Assembly (NCBI RefSeq): GCF_016862275.1
Contig: NZ_BOMQ01000017.1
Location: 124,001 to 188,000, forward strand
DNA length: 64,000 nt
Direction: 5' to 3'
Source of the DNA: Actinoplanes nipponensis
GTDB lineage: Bacteria > Actinomycetota > Actinomycetes > Mycobacteriales > Micromonosporaceae
Notes under the pieces: model-generated
What the model saw: only the letters and a program-made list of their open reading frames with translations
Databases searched by the model: none
What the model was told of the DNA's origin: nothing
Shown here: positions 28,126 to 35,874 of the stretch, piece after piece
Layout of the letters: every line of letters starts with the position of its first letter
Numbering within the stretch: position 1 is the first letter of the stretch
Program-made: the position numbers and the translations under genes

Positions 28126-29295
28126 GTGGGCATGATCAAGGTGGTCGGGCTGGTCCTGCATCCCCGGCGGGACTGCGGCGCCGCCATCCAGGCCATCGTC
28201 GCCTGGGCCGCCGCGCGCGACGTCACGGTGCTGGGCCTGCACGACGAGATCAGCCGGATCGACTGCGACGCCGTCGCGGTCGACGCCGAGGAGATGGTCG
28301 AGCGGGCCGGCCTGCTGGTCAGCCTGGGCGGCGACGGCACCATGTTGCGCACGATGCGCCTGGTCGAGGGCCGCAAGACGCCCGTGCTGGGGGTCAACGT
28401 CGGGCGCCTCGGCTTCCTCGCCGAGGTGGACCTGCCGGACCTGGCGGGCGCGCTCTCCTCGATCGACGAGCACCGGTTCACCATCGAGTCCCGCACCGCG
28501 GTGCGCACGGTGCTGCCCGGCGGCCAGGAGGTCTCTGCCTTCAACGACGTCGCGCTGGTCCGGGTGCCCGGCGACGGGCTGGCCCACGTCGGCATCACCG
28601 TCGAGGGCAGCAACTTCGTCCGGTACGCGGCCGACGCCGTGATCGTCGCCACCCCGACCGGCTCGACCGCGTACAGCTTCTCGGCCGGCGGCCCGATCGT
28701 GTCGCCCAACGTCGAGGGCCTGCTGGTCAGCGCGGCCGCCGCGCACTCGTCGTTCAACCGCTCGCTGGTGCTCTCGCCGGACGAGCGGTTGCGGCTGGAC
28801 GTGCTGGCCACCAGCGGCCGGCTGGCCATCGAGGTCGACGGCATCATCTCCGGCTACGCCGAGGCCGGCCAGCAGCTCGACATCACCCCGGTGCCCGGCG
28901 CCGCCCAGGTCATCCGCTTCGGCCGCACGTCGTTCTACGAGCGGGCCCGGCGCAAGCTGCGGGTCGAGGGCAGCGCCCAGGTCGGTTCCGGCGACGTGTC
29001 GGACGCGACCGTGGTCGACAGCTTCGAGCAGTCCCGCTACGAGATCCTGCTCGGCGGCGAGCTCGCCGGGGTCCTGCACTACCGCCGCCACGGCGGCGCG
29101 GTCGAGCTCGCGCACACCGAGATCGACCAGGCCTTCGAGGGTCGCGGGCTGGCCGGCCGGCTCGCCGCGGCCGCGCTCGCCGACGCCCGCGGGCGCGCCA
29201 CCCCGGTGGTGGTGAGCTGCCCGTACGTCGCCGGCTACGTCGAACGGCACCCCGAGTTCAAGGATCTGCTCGCCACGAGAGGAAATCCCGGATGA
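28126..29295 (+). CDS. NAD kinase fused to a YjdJ-type GNAT domain
   Basis: A 389-residue two-domain protein. The NAD kinase part (about 1-285), which converts NAD to NADP using ATP or polyphosphate, shows the nucleotide motif SLGGDGTMLR with catalytic Asp70, GVNVGRLGFLAE, the FNDV loop (about 139-142) and PTGSTAYSFSAGG (177-189). The C-terminal ~85 residues (303-387) form a minimal GNAT: HTEIDQAFEGRGLAGRLAAAALADARG followed by CPYVAGYVERHPEF, as in YjdJ-type acetyltransferases. The start is GTG 28126 or ATG 28132. The stop overlaps the next gene in ATGA. Confidence 0.88.
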   Translation: MGMIKVVGLVLHPRRDCGAAIQAIVAWAAARDVTVLGLHDEISRIDCDAVAVDAEEMVERAGLLVSLGGDGTMLRTMRLVEGRKTPVLGVNVGRLGFLAEVDLPDLAGALSSIDEHRFTIESRTAVRTVLPGGQEVSAFNDVALVRVPGDGLAHVGITVEGSNFVRYAADAVIVATPTGSTAYSFSAGGPIVSPNVEGLLVSAAAAHSSFNRSLVLSPDERLRLDVLATSGRLAIEVDGIISGYAEAGQQLDITPVPGAAQVIRFGRTSFYERARRKLRVEGSAQVGSGDVSDATVVDSFEQSRYEILLGGELAGVLHYRRHGGAVELAHTEIDQAFEGRGLAGRLAAAALADARGRATPVVVSCPYVAGYVERHPEFKDLLATRGNPG

Positions 29296-29585
29296 CCAAC
29301 CCCGTCTGCACCCACGTCGACCAGGTCCAGGACGTCGAGCCGTCGGGTGACGGCTGCGTGGAATGCCTGGCCGAGGGCGGCCGCTGGGTGCACCTGCGGG
29401 TCTGCATGACCTGCGGGCACGTCGGCTGCTGCGACTCGTCGCCCGGCAAGCACGCCACCGCGCACTTCCACGGCATCGGCCACCCGATCGTGCAGTCGTA
29501 CGAGCCGGGCGAGCGATGGTGGTGGTGCTACCAGGACAACGTGGCCTTCGAGGTCGCCGACGCCCCCTCGTTCACGCACCCCTGA
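29292..29585 (+). CDS. ZnF-UBP domain small protein
   Basis: A 97-residue protein that is one zinc-finger UBP domain. Cys/His ligands occur in CTHV, GCVECL, CMTCGHVGCCDSSPGKHATAHFHGIGHPIV (about residues 38-67) and a late WWWCYQD. In eukaryotes this fold binds the free C-terminus of ubiquitin. In bacteria it has no ubiquitin partner and probably binds a peptide terminus or senses redox state through its many Cys. It is translationally coupled to the upstream NAD kinase fusion and lies ten bases before the receiver-reductase gene. Confidence 0.88.
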   Translation: MTNPVCTHVDQVQDVEPSGDGCVECLAEGGRWVHLRVCMTCGHVGCCDSSPGKHATAHFHGIGHPIVQSYEPGERWWWCYQDNVAFEVADAPSFTHP

Positions 29586-29595
29586 GGACTGACCC

Positions 29596-31254
29596 ATGGG
29601 CCATCCCGCCATCCTGACCGTCGACGACGATGCCTCGGTGTCCCGGGCGATCGCCCGGGACCTGCGCCGCCGCTACGGCGAGGCGTACCGGATCATCCGG
29701 GCCGCCTCCGCCGCCGAGGCCCTCGAGGCGCTCAAGGAGCTCAAGCTGCGCGGCGGCCGGGTGGCCGTCATCCTGGCCGACTACCGGATGCCGCAGATGA
29801 ACGGCATCGAGTTCCTCGAGCAGGCGATGGACCTGTTCCCCCACGCGCGCCGCGCGCTGCTGACCGCGTACGCGGACACGGACGCCGCGATCCAGGCGAT
29901 CAACGTGGTCGACGTGGACCACTACCTGCTCAAGCCCTGGGACCCGCCGGAGGAGAAGCTCTACCCGGTCATCGACGCGCTGCTGGACGCCTGGCAGGCC
30001 ACCGGGGACCGCGAGGTCACCGACATCCGGGTGGTCGGGCACCGGTGGAGCGAGCCGTCGTACCAGATCCGGGACTTCCTGGCGCGCAACCTGGTGCCGT
30101 ACAAGTGGCTCGCCGCCGACGACCCGGAGGGCCGCCGCCTGCTGGAGGCGGCCGGGGTCGGCCCGGAATCGATCCCGCTGGTGGTCACCGCCGACGGCCG
30201 GGCGATGGCGCAGCCGACGCCGTCCGAGGTCGCCGAGGCGGCCGGGCTGTCGACCGCGCCGGAGCGCGACTTCTACGACCTGATCATCGTGGGCGGCGGG
30301 CCGGCCGGGCTCGGCGCGGCCGTCTACGGCGCCTCCGAGGGCCTCAAGACGCTGCTGGTGGAGCGGCAGGCGGTGGGTGGGCAGGCCGGGCAAAGCTCGC
30401 GGATCGAGAACTACCTCGGCTTCCCCGACGGCATCTCCGGCGCGCAGCTCACCGACCGGGCCCGCCGGCAGGCCGGCAAGTTCTCCGCCGAGGTGCTCAA
30501 CACCCGCGAGGTGGTCGGGCTGCGCGCCGACGGCTCGGCCCGCACCCTGCGCTTCGCCGACGGCGGGGAGATCTCGGCGCACTCGATCGTGCTGGCCACC
30601 GGCGTGGCGTACCGGCCGCTGGCCGCCGCCGGCGTCGCCGAGCTGACCGGCTCGGGCGTCTACTACGGCTCGGCCGCGACCGAGGGCCCGTCCTGCGCGG
30701 GCAGCGACGTCTACATCATCGGCGGGGCGAATTCCGCCGGTCAGGCGGCGCTGTTCTTCGCCCGGTACGCCCGCAGCGTCACCCTGCTGGTGCGGGGCGA
30801 CTCCCTCGAGGCGTCGATGTCGTACTACCTGATCCAGCAGCTCAACAAGATCGACAACGTGCACGTCCGGACCCGGTGCGAGGTGGTCGGCGCCCAGGGC
30901 AACGGGCACCTGCAGGCGATCACCATCTGTGACAGCAAGAACAACACGGTGACCAGCGTCGAGTGCGGCTACCTGTTCGTCTTCATCGGCGCCGAGCCGC
31001 GCACCGACTGGCTGGGCGGCGCCGTGGCCCGCGACGAGAAGGGCTTCGTCTACACGGGCCCGGATCTGCTCACAAATGGCACCCGTCCGGCGGGATGGGA
31101 TCGGGACCGGGATCCGTTCTACCTGGAGTGCAGTGTTCCCGGCATCTTCGCCGCCGGCGACGTCCGGGCCAACTCGGTGAAACGGGTGGCCTCGGCGGTC
31201 GGCGAGGGGGCGATGGCCGTCACGCTGGTCCATCGTTACCTGGAGGCACAGTAG
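29596..31254 (+). CDS. Receiver-thioredoxin-reductase-like flavoprotein fusion
   Basis: A 552-residue soluble fusion. The receiver domain (1-125) has the DDD acidic pocket at 10-12, phospho-acceptor Asp62 in LADYRMPQMNG and Lys113 in LLKPWDPP. A middle segment (about 140-215; VVGHRWSEPSYQIRDFL, VPYKWLAADDPEG, IPLVVTADG) looks like a glutaredoxin fold without Cys. The C-terminal part (about 225-552) is a thioredoxin-reductase-type FAD/NAD(P)H enzyme: GGGPAGLGAA, GQAGQSSRIENYLGFP, GGANSAGQAA and FAAGDVRANSVKRVASAVGEG. The CxxC of true reductases is absent (YYGSAATEG at its place). Phosphorylation probably gates a flavin oxidoreductase. Confidence 0.88.
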   Translation: MGHPAILTVDDDASVSRAIARDLRRRYGEAYRIIRAASAAEALEALKELKLRGGRVAVILADYRMPQMNGIEFLEQAMDLFPHARRALLTAYADTDAAIQAINVVDVDHYLLKPWDPPEEKLYPVIDALLDAWQATGDREVTDIRVVGHRWSEPSYQIRDFLARNLVPYKWLAADDPEGRRLLEAAGVGPESIPLVVTADGRAMAQPTPSEVAEAAGLSTAPERDFYDLIIVGGGPAGLGAAVYGASEGLKTLLVERQAVGGQAGQSSRIENYLGFPDGISGAQLTDRARRQAGKFSAEVLNTREVVGLRADGSARTLRFADGGEISAHSIVLATGVAYRPLAAAGVAELTGSGVYYGSAATEGPSCAGSDVYIIGGANSAGQAALFFARYARSVTLLVRGDSLEASMSYYLIQQLNKIDNVHVRTRCEVVGAQGNGHLQAITICDSKNNTVTSVECGYLFVFIGAEPRTDWLGGAVARDEKGFVYTGPDLLTNGTRPAGWDRDRDPFYLECSVPGIFAAGDVRANSVKRVASAVGEGAMAVTLVHRYLEAQ

Positions 31255-32688
31255 ATGTCCGCGCCCAAGCTCACGCCTGACGAGCTCAGGACCCTGTTCC
31301 TGTTCGAGAAGCTCACCGACGACCAGCTCGCCTGGATCGCCGAGCACGGCTGCGTCGAGCACGTGGCCGCCGGTGAGCTGGTGATCGAGGAGGGCGCGCC
31401 CGCCGACAAGTTCTTCCTGCTGCTCAGCGGCACCATCGCGCTCAGCCGCCGGGTCGGCCAGGACGACGTGCAGACCACCCGCACCGAGCAGCGCGGCGTG
31501 TACATGGGCGCCACCCAGGCGTACATCCGGGACGAGGGGGTCGAGCGCAAGTACATGGCGTCCATGCGCGCCCTCGACGACTCGGACTTCTTCGTGCTGT
31601 CGGCGGCGGACTTCGGCTGGATGATGCGCGAATGGTTCCCGATGGCCATCCACCTGCTGGAGGGCCTGACCCTGGGCATGCGCAGCACCCAGGCGGCCAT
31701 CTCGGAGCGGCAGCGGCTGGTCGCGCTGGGCGCCCTGTCGGCCGGCCTGATGCACGAGCTGAACAACCCGGCCGCCGCGGCGTCGCGGGCCACCGGCGCG
31801 CTGCGCCAGCGGGTCGCCGGCATGCGGCACAAGCTGGGCATGCTGGCCGCGGGCAAGGTCGCCCCGGAGCGGCTGGACGCGCTGGTCGAACTCCAGGAGG
31901 ACGTCATCGAGCGGGCCGCCAAGGCGCCCGCGCTGACCGCCCTGCAGGCCGCCGACCGCGAGGACGAGCTCGGCGACTGGATGGAGGAGCACCAGGTCAC
32001 CGGCGGCTGGGACCTGGCGCCGGTGTTCGCCCAGGGCGGCCTCGACATCGAGTGCCTGGAGCTGATCAAGGCCAAGGTGGTCGAGCCCGGCCTGCTCGAC
32101 CAGGCCATCCACTGGATCGGGTACGCGCTCGAGACCGAGCAGCTGATGAGCGACATCGAGGACGCCACCGGCCGGGTCTCCTCGCTGGTCGCCTCGGCCA
32201 AGCAGTACTCGCAGCTGGACCGGGCCGCGCACCAGTGGATCGACGTGCACACCGGCCTGGACAGCACGCTGGTCATGCTGGGTCACAAGATCGGCGACGG
32301 CGTCAAGGTGGTCAAGGAGTACGACCGCGGCCTGCCCCAGGTGCCCGCCCACCCGGCCGAGCTCAACCAGGTGTGGACCAACATCATCGACAACGCGGTC
32401 CAGGCCATGCACGGCGCCGGCACGCTGACCATCCGGACCTACCGCGAGGACGACCACGTCGTGGTGTCGATCGGCGACACCGGCCCGGGCGTGCCGGAGG
32501 AGCTGCGCAAGCGGGTCTTCGAGCCGTTCTTCACCACCAAGGCGGTGGGCGAGGGCACGGGGCTGGGCCTGGACATCTCGTACCGGATCGTGGTCAACGG
32601 CCACGGCGGCGACATCGTGCTGCGGTCCCAGCCGGGCGACACCCGCTTCCTGGTCAGCCTGCCGCTGGCCGAGCAGGCGTCGCGTTAA
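31255..32688 (+). CDS. Soluble histidine kinase with N-terminal cyclic-nucleotide-binding-like domain
   Basis: A 477-residue cytoplasmic kinase that starts immediately after the stop of the receiver-reductase gene. Residues 15-140 form a CNB/CAP-type sensor: GELVIEEGAPADKFFLLLSGTIAL and a later beta-roll. The HisKA helix carries His167 in LSAGLMHELNNPAAAA. The HATPase domain has an N box (NIIDNAVQAM), a G1 box (DTGPGVP), an F box (FEPFFTTK) and a G2 box (GTGLGLDI). No membrane helix is seen. The neighbouring receiver in the flavoprotein is the obvious phosphotransfer partner. The ligand of the CNB domain is unknown. Confidence 0.9.
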   Translation: MSAPKLTPDELRTLFLFEKLTDDQLAWIAEHGCVEHVAAGELVIEEGAPADKFFLLLSGTIALSRRVGQDDVQTTRTEQRGVYMGATQAYIRDEGVERKYMASMRALDDSDFFVLSAADFGWMMREWFPMAIHLLEGLTLGMRSTQAAISERQRLVALGALSAGLMHELNNPAAAASRATGALRQRVAGMRHKLGMLAAGKVAPERLDALVELQEDVIERAAKAPALTALQAADREDELGDWMEEHQVTGGWDLAPVFAQGGLDIECLELIKAKVVEPGLLDQAIHWIGYALETEQLMSDIEDATGRVSSLVASAKQYSQLDRAAHQWIDVHTGLDSTLVMLGHKIGDGVKVVKEYDRGLPQVPAHPAELNQVWTNIIDNAVQAMHGAGTLTIRTYREDDHVVVSIGDTGPGVPEELRKRVFEPFFTTKAVGEGTGLGLDISYRIVVNGHGGDIVLRSQPGDTRFLVSLPLAEQASR

Positions 32689-32835: not shown

Positions 32836-35800
32836 ATGGATGCTTTCGCAGTCGTGCTGCTGCGCCGTACCGCCAGGGTCGCGGTCGCCGCGGCCGGGCC
32901 GGGACCGGCCGACGGCGCGGCCTGGGCCGGCGCGCTCGAGGCCGACCTGGCCGAGCGGGGCTGGCTGCTGCACCGTGAGCTGTGGTCCGCCGCCGCCCAG
33001 CTGACGCCGCCGCTGCGCGTGCAGTGGGCCGACTGGCTGCTCGCGACGGTCGACGAGCTGACCGGCGCCGACCGCACCATGGTCCCGCTGTACCGGTCCT
33101 TCCCGGACACCCCGCGCAACCCCGAGGCGGTCTTCGTCCGGCGGCTGCTGACCCACCTGCTGGCCGTGCCGGGGGCGCCGTGCGTGCTGTGCGGCCGCGA
33201 GCAGGACGGCGAGCCGCTGGACCCGTGCGGTCACCCGGTGTGCCGGTCCTGCTTCGCGCCCGAGGAGTTCAGCGCCTGCCCGATCTGCGGGCGCCGGCCC
33301 GCGGCCGGGACGCCCTACCTGCCGATGGTCGCGCCGGCCGGGCCGCCGGCGGCCGGGCCCCCGGTACGGGTACGGCTGCTGCGCCTGGAGCACGATCCGG
33401 CCGCCGCCGCCACCAAGCTGCGCGACGAACTGGTCGCCCGGCCCGGCGCGCTGGGCGAGGCCGACCGGGCGGACCTGGCGGTGCTGATCAAGGCCACCGC
33501 GCCGGCCGAACTCGGCTGGCTGCCCGCCACCGTGCCGGCCCGCGAGACACTCGCGCTGGTGCTGGCGTGGGCGCTGCACGCGACGGCGCTGACCGAGGCG
33601 TATCCGGAGGTGCTCGCCGAGACGCGGCGGCGGTGGCAGACGGCGACGGACGTGGCGCGGACGCTGTGGGCGTACTCCGGCGGGGACGCGGGACTGAACC
33701 TGCCGGCGCGGGCCGACGGGCCGTCCGCACCGGGGGAGGCGTGGCGGCCGGTGGACGAGCCGGCGACGCCGGTGCCGGTGACCCGGGTGCGGGCGTTGCC
33801 GCGGGCGCTGCGCCGGGCCGCCCTCGGGCGCCTGGACGCGTGCGGTGCGGGCGCCGCGGCCGAGGACCTGCGGCGGCATCCGGCGGTGTGGAAGCGGCTG
33901 GGGGAGCGGCTGCACCCGTACGAGCGGGTCCCGGCGCACCCGGGCGCGGCGGTCGCGTTCGCGGCGTTGCGTGGCACCCGCACCGCGCGGGATTCCGCGC
34001 TCGGCGCGGCCATGGTCGCGGCCGGCGCCGAGGATCCGCGCCGGCTGGTGCTGACCGACCACCCCGACGGTACGGTCACCGTCCGGCTCCGCACCCACGC
34101 GGCGTTGGTCGAGCGGGCCTTCGCCGACGGTGACGCCGGCCGGGCCGCGCGGCTGCTCGCCGAGCGCCCCGGCGAGCTGTGGCGGCGGGTCGACCAGCTG
34201 CTGCGGACGACGGGACCGGACGGCCACGAGGGGCTGACGGGTGTGCTGCGGGACAGCGCGGGCCGGGTCGCGCCGGGCGTGCTGGCCGCGGCGGCCGCCG
34301 AGCTGGCGGGCCGGGACGAGACGGTGGCGGCGACCGAGGAGCAGCTCGCCGCGGTGGCTGCCGCCCGGGCGGCGGCGATGGTCCGGGCGCAGGGTGCCGG
34401 CCGGCCGGCCGGTGGCCCGGTGAGCGTTGACCCGGCCGGGACCAGCATCGGGCGGGCGTTCCGGGCGGCCTTCGAGACGCTGAGCCGCCGGTTCGCTGGG
34501 CCGGGCGCGGGCGCTGTGCCGGGTGCGGCTGGGCCGGGCGCGGGCGCTGTGCCGGGTGCGGCTGGGCCGAGCGCGGGCGCTGCTGCGGGCGGGGCTGGGC
34601 CGAGCGCGGGCGCTGTGCCGGGCGCGGATGTGGGGGTGCCGGGTGCCGCGGGTGCGGTTGCCGGGGCCGGCGCGGAGGCCGGTGCGGCGGCGGGGATCGT
34701 CGGCGGGCGGCCGGGACCCGGCATGCCGCGGCGGGTCTTCTTCCCCCGGGGCAGCACCGTGACGACGTGGACCGAGCCCGAGCGCCGTGCCCCGCTGCCC
34801 ACCGCGGCCGTCGCCGCCGTGCGTACCGTCGTCGACGACGAGCTGGTCCGCCGGGCTGCGGGCCTCGGCCGCTTCGACCTGGCCGTGATCGACGCCGCGC
34901 TCGCGCGGGTGCCCATGCCGATGCGGGAGCGGGCCGCCTCCGGCCAGCTCGCCGGCTGGCCGCGCGGCAGCATCCGGGCCCTGCCCGGCGGGCCGGTGCT
35001 GCGGCTGTTCCTGCACTGGGAGGACACCGAGGACCACCGGGTCGACCTCGACCTGTCCTGCGGGTTCTACGACGCGAACTGGCAGCGGGTCGGGCACTGC
35101 GACTACACCCGGCTGCGGTTCGCCGGCGACGGCGCCGTGCACTCCGGGGACCTCACCTCCGCGCCGGCGCCGCTGGGGGCCACGGAGTTCCTGGATCTGC
35201 GGCCGGCCCGCCTCGCCGAGGCCGGGGTGCGCTACGTGCTCCCGGTGGTGATCAGCTACAACGCCGTGCCGTTCGAGCTGCTCACCGAGGCGTTCGCCGG
35301 GCTGATGCGGCCGCTGGCCGGCGGCGCCCAGTTCGACGCGGCCCGGGTCGAGCAGCGCTTCGACCTGCGCGGCGACACCCGGATGCTGCTGTCGATGGTC
35401 GTCGACCTCACCGGGCGGCAGCTGCTCTGGACCGACCTGGCTCTGCCCGGACGCGGCTACGGGCACAGCGTGACCCGGCACGGCGACCAGCTGGCCCGGG
35501 CCGCGGCCGACCAGTGGGAGCACTTCGCGGGCGGCCACCGGGCGACCCTGCTGGACCTGCTGGCCTGGCAGGCGGCCGGCCGCGCGGACCGGGTGCTGGT
35601 GGCCCACGCCGACGGCACGTGCACCGAGGTGGAGCCGGCGGTCCCGGCTATCCGGGCGGCCGCGGCCGCCGACACCGGGGTGCTCCCGGCCGTGGACGGG
35701 ACGCGCGGCCGGACGGTGCTGGCCGCCACCGTCGACGGCGAGACGCTGGACCGGCTCGTGCCCGACGGCGTGGCGGCGGGCTCGGTGGCGCTCACGGTCA

Positions 35801-35874
35801 CCGGCGATCCGGGGGAGCCGTGGACGCGCCTACCCGCGGCCGAGGCGCTGGGCCTGCTCGGCGTGGCGGAATAG
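32836..35874 (+). CDS. MXAN_6230/SCO0854-type RING domain protein with TerD-like domain
   Basis: A 1012-residue cytoplasmic protein. A C3HC4 RING-like zinc motif lies at about residues 116-151: Cys116, 119, 131, His133, Cys136, 139, 148, 151. A long helical region of unknown fold follows (about 170-540), then a low-complexity Ala/Gly/Pro stretch (about 554-620) encoded by 33-bp tandem repeats. The C-terminal part (about 710-860) has HWEDTEDHRVDLDLSCGFYD and GDLTSAPAPLGATEFLDL, as in TerD-like calcium-binding domains of tellurite-resistance systems. The architecture matches a family known from Myxococcus and Streptomyces whose function is undescribed. GGGGGAGG precedes the ATG. Confidence 0.8.
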   Translation: MDAFAVVLLRRTARVAVAAAGPGPADGAAWAGALEADLAERGWLLHRELWSAAAQLTPPLRVQWADWLLATVDELTGADRTMVPLYRSFPDTPRNPEAVFVRRLLTHLLAVPGAPCVLCGREQDGEPLDPCGHPVCRSCFAPEEFSACPICGRRPAAGTPYLPMVAPAGPPAAGPPVRVRLLRLEHDPAAAATKLRDELVARPGALGEADRADLAVLIKATAPAELGWLPATVPARETLALVLAWALHATALTEAYPEVLAETRRRWQTATDVARTLWAYSGGDAGLNLPARADGPSAPGEAWRPVDEPATPVPVTRVRALPRALRRAALGRLDACGAGAAAEDLRRHPAVWKRLGERLHPYERVPAHPGAAVAFAALRGTRTARDSALGAAMVAAGAEDPRRLVLTDHPDGTVTVRLRTHAALVERAFADGDAGRAARLLAERPGELWRRVDQLLRTTGPDGHEGLTGVLRDSAGRVAPGVLAAAAAELAGRDETVAATEEQLAAVAAARAAAMVRAQGAGRPAGGPVSVDPAGTSIGRAFRAAFETLSRRFAGPGAGAVPGAAGPGAGAVPGAAGPSAGAAAGGAGPSAGAVPGADVGVPGAAGAVAGAGAEAGAAAGIVGGRPGPGMPRRVFFPRGSTVTTWTEPERRAPLPTAAVAAVRTVVDDELVRRAAGLGRFDLAVIDAALARVPMPMRERAASGQLAGWPRGSIRALPGGPVLRLFLHWEDTEDHRVDLDLSCGFYDANWQRVGHCDYTRLRFAGDGAVHSGDLTSAPAPLGATEFLDLRPARLAEAGVRYVLPVVISYNAVPFELLTEAFAGLMRPLAGGAQFDAARVEQRFDLRGDTRMLLSMVVDLTGRQLLWTDLALPGRGYGHSVTRHGDQLARAAADQWEHFAGGHRATLLDLLAWQAAGRADRVLVAHADGTCTEVEPAVPAIRAAAAADTGVLPAVDGTRGRTVLAATVDGETLDRLVPDGVAAGSVALTVTGDPGEPWTRLPAAEALGLLGVAE
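34495..34626 (+). repeat. Four 33-bp tandem repeats inside the RING/TerD gene
   Basis: Four in-frame 33-bp units at 34495, 34528, 34561 and 34594 encode the 11-residue AGPGAGAVPGA and variants. The first two are identical at protein level. They form a flexible linker between the helical and TerD-like parts. Copy number may vary among strains. Confidence 0.85.

Follow-up and report, generated by a model that had tools for sequence, protein, structure and literature searches.

A putative two-component system with a CxxC-less flavoprotein as output and a zf-UBP protein as partner in Actinoplanes nipponensis

Receiver-flavoprotein fusions and the A. nipponensis locus

Most two-component outputs bind DNA. 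In the locus described here, the direct output of a two-component system appears to be an NAD(P)H-flavoprotein. The low-Mr thioredoxin reductases (TrxR) and AhpF are built from FAD and NAD(P) Rossmann modules, and AhpF carries a thioredoxin-fold domain in front of them. TrxB-type response regulators with a cognate histidine kinase have been catalogued, S. coelicolor SCO7298/SCO7297 among them, in a table of PMC9739842, and fusions of a receiver (REC) to thioredoxin reductase are labelled Mycobacterium-like in PMC5847659. SCO7298 is induced by sulfane sulfur and by acid shock. No mechanistic study of REC-TrxB/kinase pairs was found in the literature searched.

The window, a stretch of 64,000 nt from A. 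nipponensis (contig NZ_BOMQ01000017.1, positions 124,001-188,000 of the forward strand), contains four ORFs on the forward strand at 28126-32688. The first (28126-29295) encodes a fusion of an NAD kinase with a small GNAT domain (NAD kinase N 3e-14, C 8e-24; PF14542 4e-23), and its start codon may be ATG 28132 rather than GTG 28126. It is followed by a 97-aa protein with a zinc finger of the ubiquitin-hydrolase type (29292-29585; Pfam zf-UBP 2e-11), a fusion of REC, a glutaredoxin-like domain and a TrxR-like FAD/NAD(P) module (29596-31254; Response_reg 2e-14, Pyr_redox_2 5e-32) and a CNB-type histidine kinase (31255-32688; cNMP_binding 3e-10, HATPase_c 3e-24). Reading of the DNA gave an ATGA overlap at 29292, a 10-base gap upstream of 29596 and a 0-base gap at 31254/31255, so that both the ORF list and the junctions agree with the gene order and coupling of the first-pass annotation. 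In S. coelicolor, according to the table cited above, a REC with TrxR-type output is listed next to a histidine kinase, in the order RR-HK, like the pair in the window; the gene order of the two loci differs, and an NAD kinase-GNAT gene is added in A. nipponensis. REC-TrxB/kinase pairs are already catalogued, and what is new here is that CxxC is lost from both sites, together with the glutaredoxin-like domain, the UBP partner and the swap of the CNB domain.

Two wider readings of the locus were tried and rejected. The downstream RING gene (32836-35874) is not a fifth member, as loci L043-L212 gave matches to it in the window alone and loci L304-L363 showed no counterpart. An anti-phage system was rejected because PADLOC gave no match for four of five proteins; the kinase had a weak PycTIR match (5e-4), confined to its CNB part.

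Domains and thiol sites of the flavoprotein

The receiver contains the acidic pair D10/D11, the phospho-Asp D62, T90 and K113, and Asp62 was nearly invariant (at least 90%) among 13 aligned receivers. Between REC and the flavoprotein module, at residues about 140-215 (30013-30255), sequence profiles place a glutaredoxin-like domain that the first-pass annotation had missed. The glutaredoxin fold is assigned by profile, with 2lqo matching at E = 2.4e-6; the Pfam Glutaredoxin model matches 9 of 20 members of the flavoprotein family, the protein of the window not being among them. The active-site cysteines of this domain are replaced, and the site, at which CxxS occurs in 0/97 members, reads WSEPS in the window.

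TrxR is the nearest solved relative of the flavoprotein by sequence (best 4e-43), followed by AhpF (1hyu_A, 2.3e-33). It shares the FAD and NAD(P) Rossmann modules with both, and resembles AhpF in the thioredoxin-fold domain in front, yet it falls below the NCBIfam cut-offs for TrxR and AhpF. Unlike these enzymes, the family has CxxC in neither fold: the motif was found in 0/97 members at either thiol site, while both ordinary TrxRs encoded in this genome, used as positive controls, have it. With the redox-active CxxC of the NADPH domain missing, an ordinary thioredoxin reductase was rejected, and the loss at both sites indicates that the flavoprotein probably is not a thioredoxin reductase. 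Classical thioredoxin-reductase chemistry is unlikely on this evidence, a correction to the name TrxR used in the first-pass annotation. A single cysteine, C367, is kept in 71/97 members and absent in 26/97; it is offset from the TrxR active-site cysteines in alignments, and its retention leaves room for a single-cysteine reaction. Both ordinary thioredoxin reductases of the genome have the HRRxxxR motif; the window protein lacks it (VRGDSLE) and retains a single arginine of it, R400, which is kept in 94/97 members. The proposed dependence on NADP(H) is doubtful in consequence.

Kinase and receiver across genomes

In the kinase, H167 lies within HELNNPAAA, and the N (WTNIIDNA), G1 (DTGPG) and G2 (GTGLGL) boxes are present. 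The Pfam HisKA model did not match the kinase, and the H-box was recognised by conservation instead, His167 being invariant among 12 aligned kinases. Both phospho-sites reported earlier, His167 and Asp62, are indeed intact. An intact CNB phosphate-binding cassette has the form GE..L..PRxA[TS]. Such a cassette, or nearly such a one, was found in L089, L111, L116, L123, L158 and L165, while that of the window kinase is divergent (GVYMGATQAY...KYMASM); as it is divergent in the clade of the window, sensing of cyclic nucleotides is not implied. Pfam detected no second receiver and no Hpt domain in the four genes. The multi-step phosphorelay that had been proposed was therefore rejected on the domain content of these four genes, and kinase and receiver look like a one-step two-component pair.

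A same-strand CNB-kinase was found near 53/54 intact receivers, near 0/31 proteins without REC and near 0/12 degenerate receivers, the flanks examined at the last being 2.6-7.2 kb, so that a distant kinase could be missed. In the named loci alone the counts were 40/41 for intact, 0/11 for degenerate and 0/27 for absent receivers, and in Micromonosporaceae 39/39 for intact receivers, 0/3 for degenerate ones and 0/1 for a CNB fusion. An intact receiver with no kinase in its locus came from a cyanobacterium (L151). Among 296 Actinomycetota genomes, the kinase family (at least 200 bits) was present in 36 of the 38 with a close REC-flavoprotein (at least 48% identity, fragments included) and in 0/258 others. 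A full kinase match is missing from G221 and G183 (contig edge or fragment), and weaker matches of 108-133 bits occur without a close REC-flavoprotein in G108, G129, G151, G172 and G194. The tree requires 5 changes of receiver state and has only 2 independent pairs on well-supported branches; with so few independent events, Fisher p-values overstate the link. These distributions suggest an association between kinase and intact receiver above chance, and they support the earlier claim of a kinase/receiver pair with an enzyme-like output, which looks cognate.

The kinase/REC-flavoprotein pair occurs in eight phyla, in three of them with zf-UBP. Loci with all three genes were found in Actinomycetota, Cyanobacteriota and Bacteroidota, and the trio for which the first-pass annotation had suggested a neighbourhood survey is conserved beyond close relatives. 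In another branch, 24 of the 97 flavoproteins are direct fusions with CNB. These proteins have the CxxC-less linker and flavoprotein core in common with the window but, besides the attached CNB, differ in lacking REC and a same-strand kinase of the family (0 of 24); in L203, a kinase match of 53 bits lies on the opposite strand.

The zf-UBP and NAD kinase genes and the proposed function

The solved chain closest to the UBP protein is 2ida_A, which matches residues 6-91 of 97 (E = 2e-35). It is titled 'Hypothetical protein', and we take it to be the zf-UBP protein RPA1320 of R. palustris, on which a literature search found no paper. The zinc ligands C22, C25, C38, C41, C46, H54, H58 and H64 are present in all 90 aligned UBPs, two partial sequences having been left out. 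In HDAC6 and USP5, an arginine grips the C-terminal Gly-Gly, together with W and Y. W78 is kept in 78/90 aligned sequences, position 80 is Y in 62/90 and F in 23/90, and Ser stands near the likely position of the arginine; canonical diglycine binding is not supported by these residues, though it may still occur. UBP genes were present in 49/73 Actinomycetota genomes with the flavoprotein family vs 19/223 without it, and in Micromonosporaceae in 41/41 vs 6/20. UBP is linked in 15/41 named intact loci, in 16/40 phylum genes and in 9/40 Micromonosporaceae loci, window included. The linkage recurs beside every architecture, with 18 changes on a tree whose sample was chosen in part through UBP. Pairings of UBP are not confined to this system, a Na+/H+ exchanger gene being one of its other neighbours.

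The NAD kinase contains two motifs typical of such enzymes, GGDGT (residue 68) and GSTAYS (around residue 179), and scores below the NCBIfam equivalog cut-offs. Of the 22 genomes holding its subfamily, 7 have the gene linked to UBP or the REC-flavoprotein, which led us to reject it as a core member, against the first-pass annotation. It adjoins the REC-flavoprotein in G322 and G323, UBP in G316 and G347, and both in G000 and G350. This adjacency is limited to a small Micromonosporaceae group and places the gene outside the core.

We consider it probable that the locus encodes a dedicated two-component system with a flavoprotein switch as output and UBP as partner. It seems unlikely that kinase and receiver alone form the functional unit, UBP and NAD kinase-GNAT being unrelated neighbours. 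The minority of Micromonosporaceae loci with linked UBP, the failure to find UBP in the P. tereljensis locus L133 and the low NAD kinase count would fit this reading, whereas the recurrence of UBP beside all architectures, with the sampling noted, its genome-wide co-occurrence with the flavoprotein family and the genomes named above in which the NAD kinase gene joins the REC-flavoprotein, UBP or both argue against it. Equally doubtful is a reversed flow, in which the flavoprotein would sense the redox state of FAD or NAD(P)H, while REC and kinase would read or reset it. A redox fold that lacks CxxC may serve as a sensor and not as an enzyme, and the operon offers the kinase no other receiver; on the other side, CNB, a typical input module, is carried by the kinase or joined straight to the flavoprotein, an arrangement indicating that the flavoprotein is the output. 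Still less probable is a receiver-controlled TrxR-type enzyme that remains a thiol or sulfane-sulfur reductase, through C367 or an external dithiol. The kinship with TrxR, the frequent retention of C367 and the induction of SCO7298, the trxB3 of S. coelicolor, by HSnH speak for it; the lack of CxxC at both sites in all members, and a C367 that is missing in about a quarter of them and misplaced relative to the TrxR cysteines, speak against it.

In the two-component system that we favour, the CNB-like domain of the kinase would sense an intracellular signal, and the kinase would autophosphorylate on His167 and then phosphorylate Asp62 of the receiver. This may alter, through the CxxC-less glutaredoxin-like hinge, the conformation or reactivity of the FAD/NAD(P)H module. 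The flavoprotein could use NAD(P)H to reduce a partner or a small acceptor, or act as an NAD(P)H- or redox-dependent signalling protein, possibly with a link to redox stress. The UBP protein, as a recurrent partner, would most likely serve it as an adaptor for binding or be its target, and the private NAD kinase-acetyltransferase may have been gained in one Actinoplanes-like group of Micromonosporaceae. A wider and more tentative proposal is that signalling flavoproteins with both CxxC lost are widespread, are switched by CNB-kinase and REC or by a fused CNB, act through UBP and, in Actinoplanes-like bacteria, are coupled to the NAD/NADP pool by their own NAD kinase. Because the core also exists with its input domain swapped, natural versions are at hand in which this logic can be tested. 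The flavoprotein is also a concrete partner candidate for bacterial ubiquitin-type zinc fingers. The annotation of these genes as 'thioredoxin reductase' is probably misleading; a study of sulfur stress, for one, counts SCO7298 as trxB3.

Gene cluster and flavoprotein of the window

As the first-pass annotation had it from the DNA, four same-strand genes lie at 28126-32688 (+), joined by an ATGA overlap, 10 bases and 0 bases; the genome containing them is 8.95 Mb in size. Their domain content was borne out by Pfam: NAD kinase with a small GNAT domain in the first gene (GTG start, alternative ATG six bases downstream), zf-UBP in the second, a receiver (REC) with a pyridine-nucleotide oxidoreductase in the third, and CNB with HATPase in the fourth. 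HisKA of Pfam did not match the window's kinase, and its phospho-His was located via the conserved HELNNP box. The closest named relative of the flavoprotein is that of Paractinoplanes tereljensis (87% identity). The next gene 3′, at 32836-35874 (+), encodes a 1012-aa RING-finger protein of the MXAN_6230/SCO0854 family (NCBIfam, 970 bits); its position near a ubiquitin-type zinc finger is striking, and no counterpart was found in any other locus examined.

The named-genome scan gave at least 80 loci with a flavoprotein, and domains were mapped in the loci using profiles made from relatives of the window's proteins. The comparison set comprised the 97 flavoproteins scoring >330 bits on the TrxR profile, from loci L043-L212 and the window; shorter flavoproteins were left out, and among named loci L176 alone was dropped. 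The flavoprotein contains an extra domain at residues ∼140-215, which the first-pass annotation lacked. No Pfam model matched these residues in the window's own protein. Nine of 20 relatives matched Glutaredoxin (Pfam) in that region (best 4e-7), and a profile of the 20 matched the mycobacterial glutaredoxin 2lqo (mycoredoxin) at 2.4e-6. None of the 97 family members, the window counted, has CxxC at the glutaredoxin-like or TrxR-like site or CxxS at the glutaredoxin site, and CxxC was found in none of 43 Micromonosporaceae flavoproteins. As controls, both ordinary thioredoxin reductases of the window's genome carry CATC and HRRDSFR. A different cysteine, C367, is common to 71/97 flavoproteins. 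HRRxxxR is reduced to its first Arg in the window (R400; present in 94/97), so NADPH preference is not to be assumed.

Pairing of kinase and intact receiver

Receivers with D/E11, D62, T/S90 and K113 were counted as intact. A same-strand family kinase was present in the locus of 53/54 intact receivers of the 97-member set, 0/12 degenerate receivers and 0/31 proteins without a receiver; for named loci alone the counts were 40/41, 0/11 and 0/27. The sole intact receiver lacking a kinase in its locus is from a cyanobacterium (L151), and one protein without a receiver (L203) had a weak 53-bit kinase match on the opposite strand. The family kinase profile gave no match at E 1e-3 in degenerate-receiver loci, where the flanks covered only 2.6-7.2 kb. 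Mapped onto the flavoprotein-core tree, the receiver shows five changes of state, giving only two independent pairs on well-supported branches, and the kinase follows in the same direction in both, under nearly all pairings. The pattern is consistent, yet the independent events are few. Pairs with an intact receiver occur in Actinomycetota, Cyanobacteriota, Pseudomonadota, Thermomicrobiota, Bacteroidota, Gemmatimonadota, Acidobacteriota and Verrucomicrobiota.

Among 296 Actinomycetota genomes, a family kinase of ≥200 bits was found in 36/38 with a close REC-flavoprotein (≥48% identity, fragments counted) versus 0/258 others, five of which had weaker matches of 108-133 bits; REC-like flavoproteins below 48% identity fall outside this count, and receiver residues were examined there only in G106 (L077). 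Both exceptions lie near contig ends: the flavoprotein gene of G221 begins 406 bases from one, and in G183 the kinase shows up only as a fragment of 142 bits next to such an edge. In 42 Micromonosporaceae REC-flavoprotein loci, the kinase accompanied 39/39 intact and 0/3 degenerate receivers (L360-L362).

Two to three tandem family kinases lie near one REC-flavoprotein in L045, L058 and L152 and in genomes G130, G195, G227, G237 and G248. In a Bacteroidota relative (L169:6992-8659) the phospho-Asp is replaced by Glu, and the locus contains no kinase; such a receiver is possibly permanently 'on'.

Proposed signal flow and input swap

In 24/97 members the CxxC-less flavoprotein core carries a directly fused CNB domain, 22 in one branch of the tree and two in another; the locus of a Micromonosporaceae CNB fusion (L363) contains no kinase. 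Taken with the kinase/REC pairs, CNB would therefore act on the flavoprotein by one of two routes, within a single polypeptide or by way of kinase and receiver, and this swap is the strongest reason to place the flavoprotein at the output end. The CNB cassette of the window is divergent; in L089, L111, L116, L123, L158 and L165 it is standard or nearly so. The parts of the system and their pairing are established; for the signal flow we infer that most likely a signal would reach the CNB domain of the kinase, phosphoryl would pass from His167 to Asp62, and a conformational change via the glutaredoxin-like hinge would gate the FAD/NAD(P)H module, UBP serving as a partner.

The REC-TrxB/kinase architecture is already known. 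REC with thioredoxin reductase was termed 'Mycobacterium-like' (PMC5847659), the Streptomyces coelicolor TrxB SCO7298 was paired with the histidine kinase SCO7297 (PMC9739842), and a table lists a TrxB regulator in 1/17 thermophilic cyanobacteria (PMC9953108). SCO7298, as trxB3, was induced by sulfane sulfur (HSnH), also in an adpA mutant (PMC9952706), and strongly upregulated by acid shock (PMC2631018). SCO7298 is a presumed orthologue, judged by the architecture given for it and by the Streptomyces loci. No published study of the mechanism or the UBP link was found in a literature search covering mainly open-access papers; as far as that literature goes, CxxC loss, REC/kinase co-loss, the input swap and UBP recurrence are undescribed.

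UBP and NAD kinase as possible partners

The trio of REC-flavoprotein, CNB kinase and UBP, whose conservation outside close relatives had been in question, occurs in Actinomycetota, Cyanobacteriota (L156, its kinase split across two ORFs) and Bacteroidota (L159, L168, L172). All three occurred together in 12/89 loci fetched around UBP places, and a UBP gene was present in 15/41 named loci with intact receivers, 1/11 with degenerate ones and 7/27 without REC. In the Actinomycetota survey zf-UBP was present in 68/296 genomes and lay ≤10 kb from 16/40 close REC-flavoprotein genes. Co-occurrence counts, which are confounded by ancestry and genome size, were 49/73 genomes with any flavoprotein-family member versus 19/223 others, and 41/41 Micromonosporaceae genomes with a full-length REC-flavoprotein (one degenerate) versus 6/20 without. 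UBP also has other partners; the second UBP of the window's genome overlaps a Na+/H+ exchanger gene at the end of the latter (L043:7305-9142; G000:C20). In several other cases the UBP ORF forms the terminal part of a long ORF, which may be a fusion.

The four-gene set proposed in the first-pass annotation holds for the window; its NAD kinase is not a general member and is linked in few Micromonosporaceae genomes. The subfamily (>317 bits) was found in 22/61 of these genomes, GNAT-fused in five of the 22. It lies next to the REC-flavoprotein with UBP in between in G000 (the window's genome) and G350, directly adjoins the flavoprotein in G322, G323 and also P. tereljensis (L133), adjoins UBP apart from the flavoprotein in G316 and G347, and in G338 stands 2.6 kb from UBP or flavoprotein without adjoining. 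In the other 15, neither UBP nor flavoprotein was found within ∼5 kb each side, contig permitting. Since the NAD kinase adjoins UBP or flavoprotein in only part of the 22 genomes, it is a lineage-specific addition; since it joins UBP in some and the flavoprotein in others, a real link with the system is mildly supported.

In L308:4439-5949 and L309:4787-6332, genes for UBP, NAD kinase and a stand-alone GNAT are consecutive and apart from the REC-flavoprotein, an unfused version of the window's fusion. A GNAT resembling that of the window adjoins UBP in two further Actinomycetota lineages (L068:2895-3478, L114:7012-7579).
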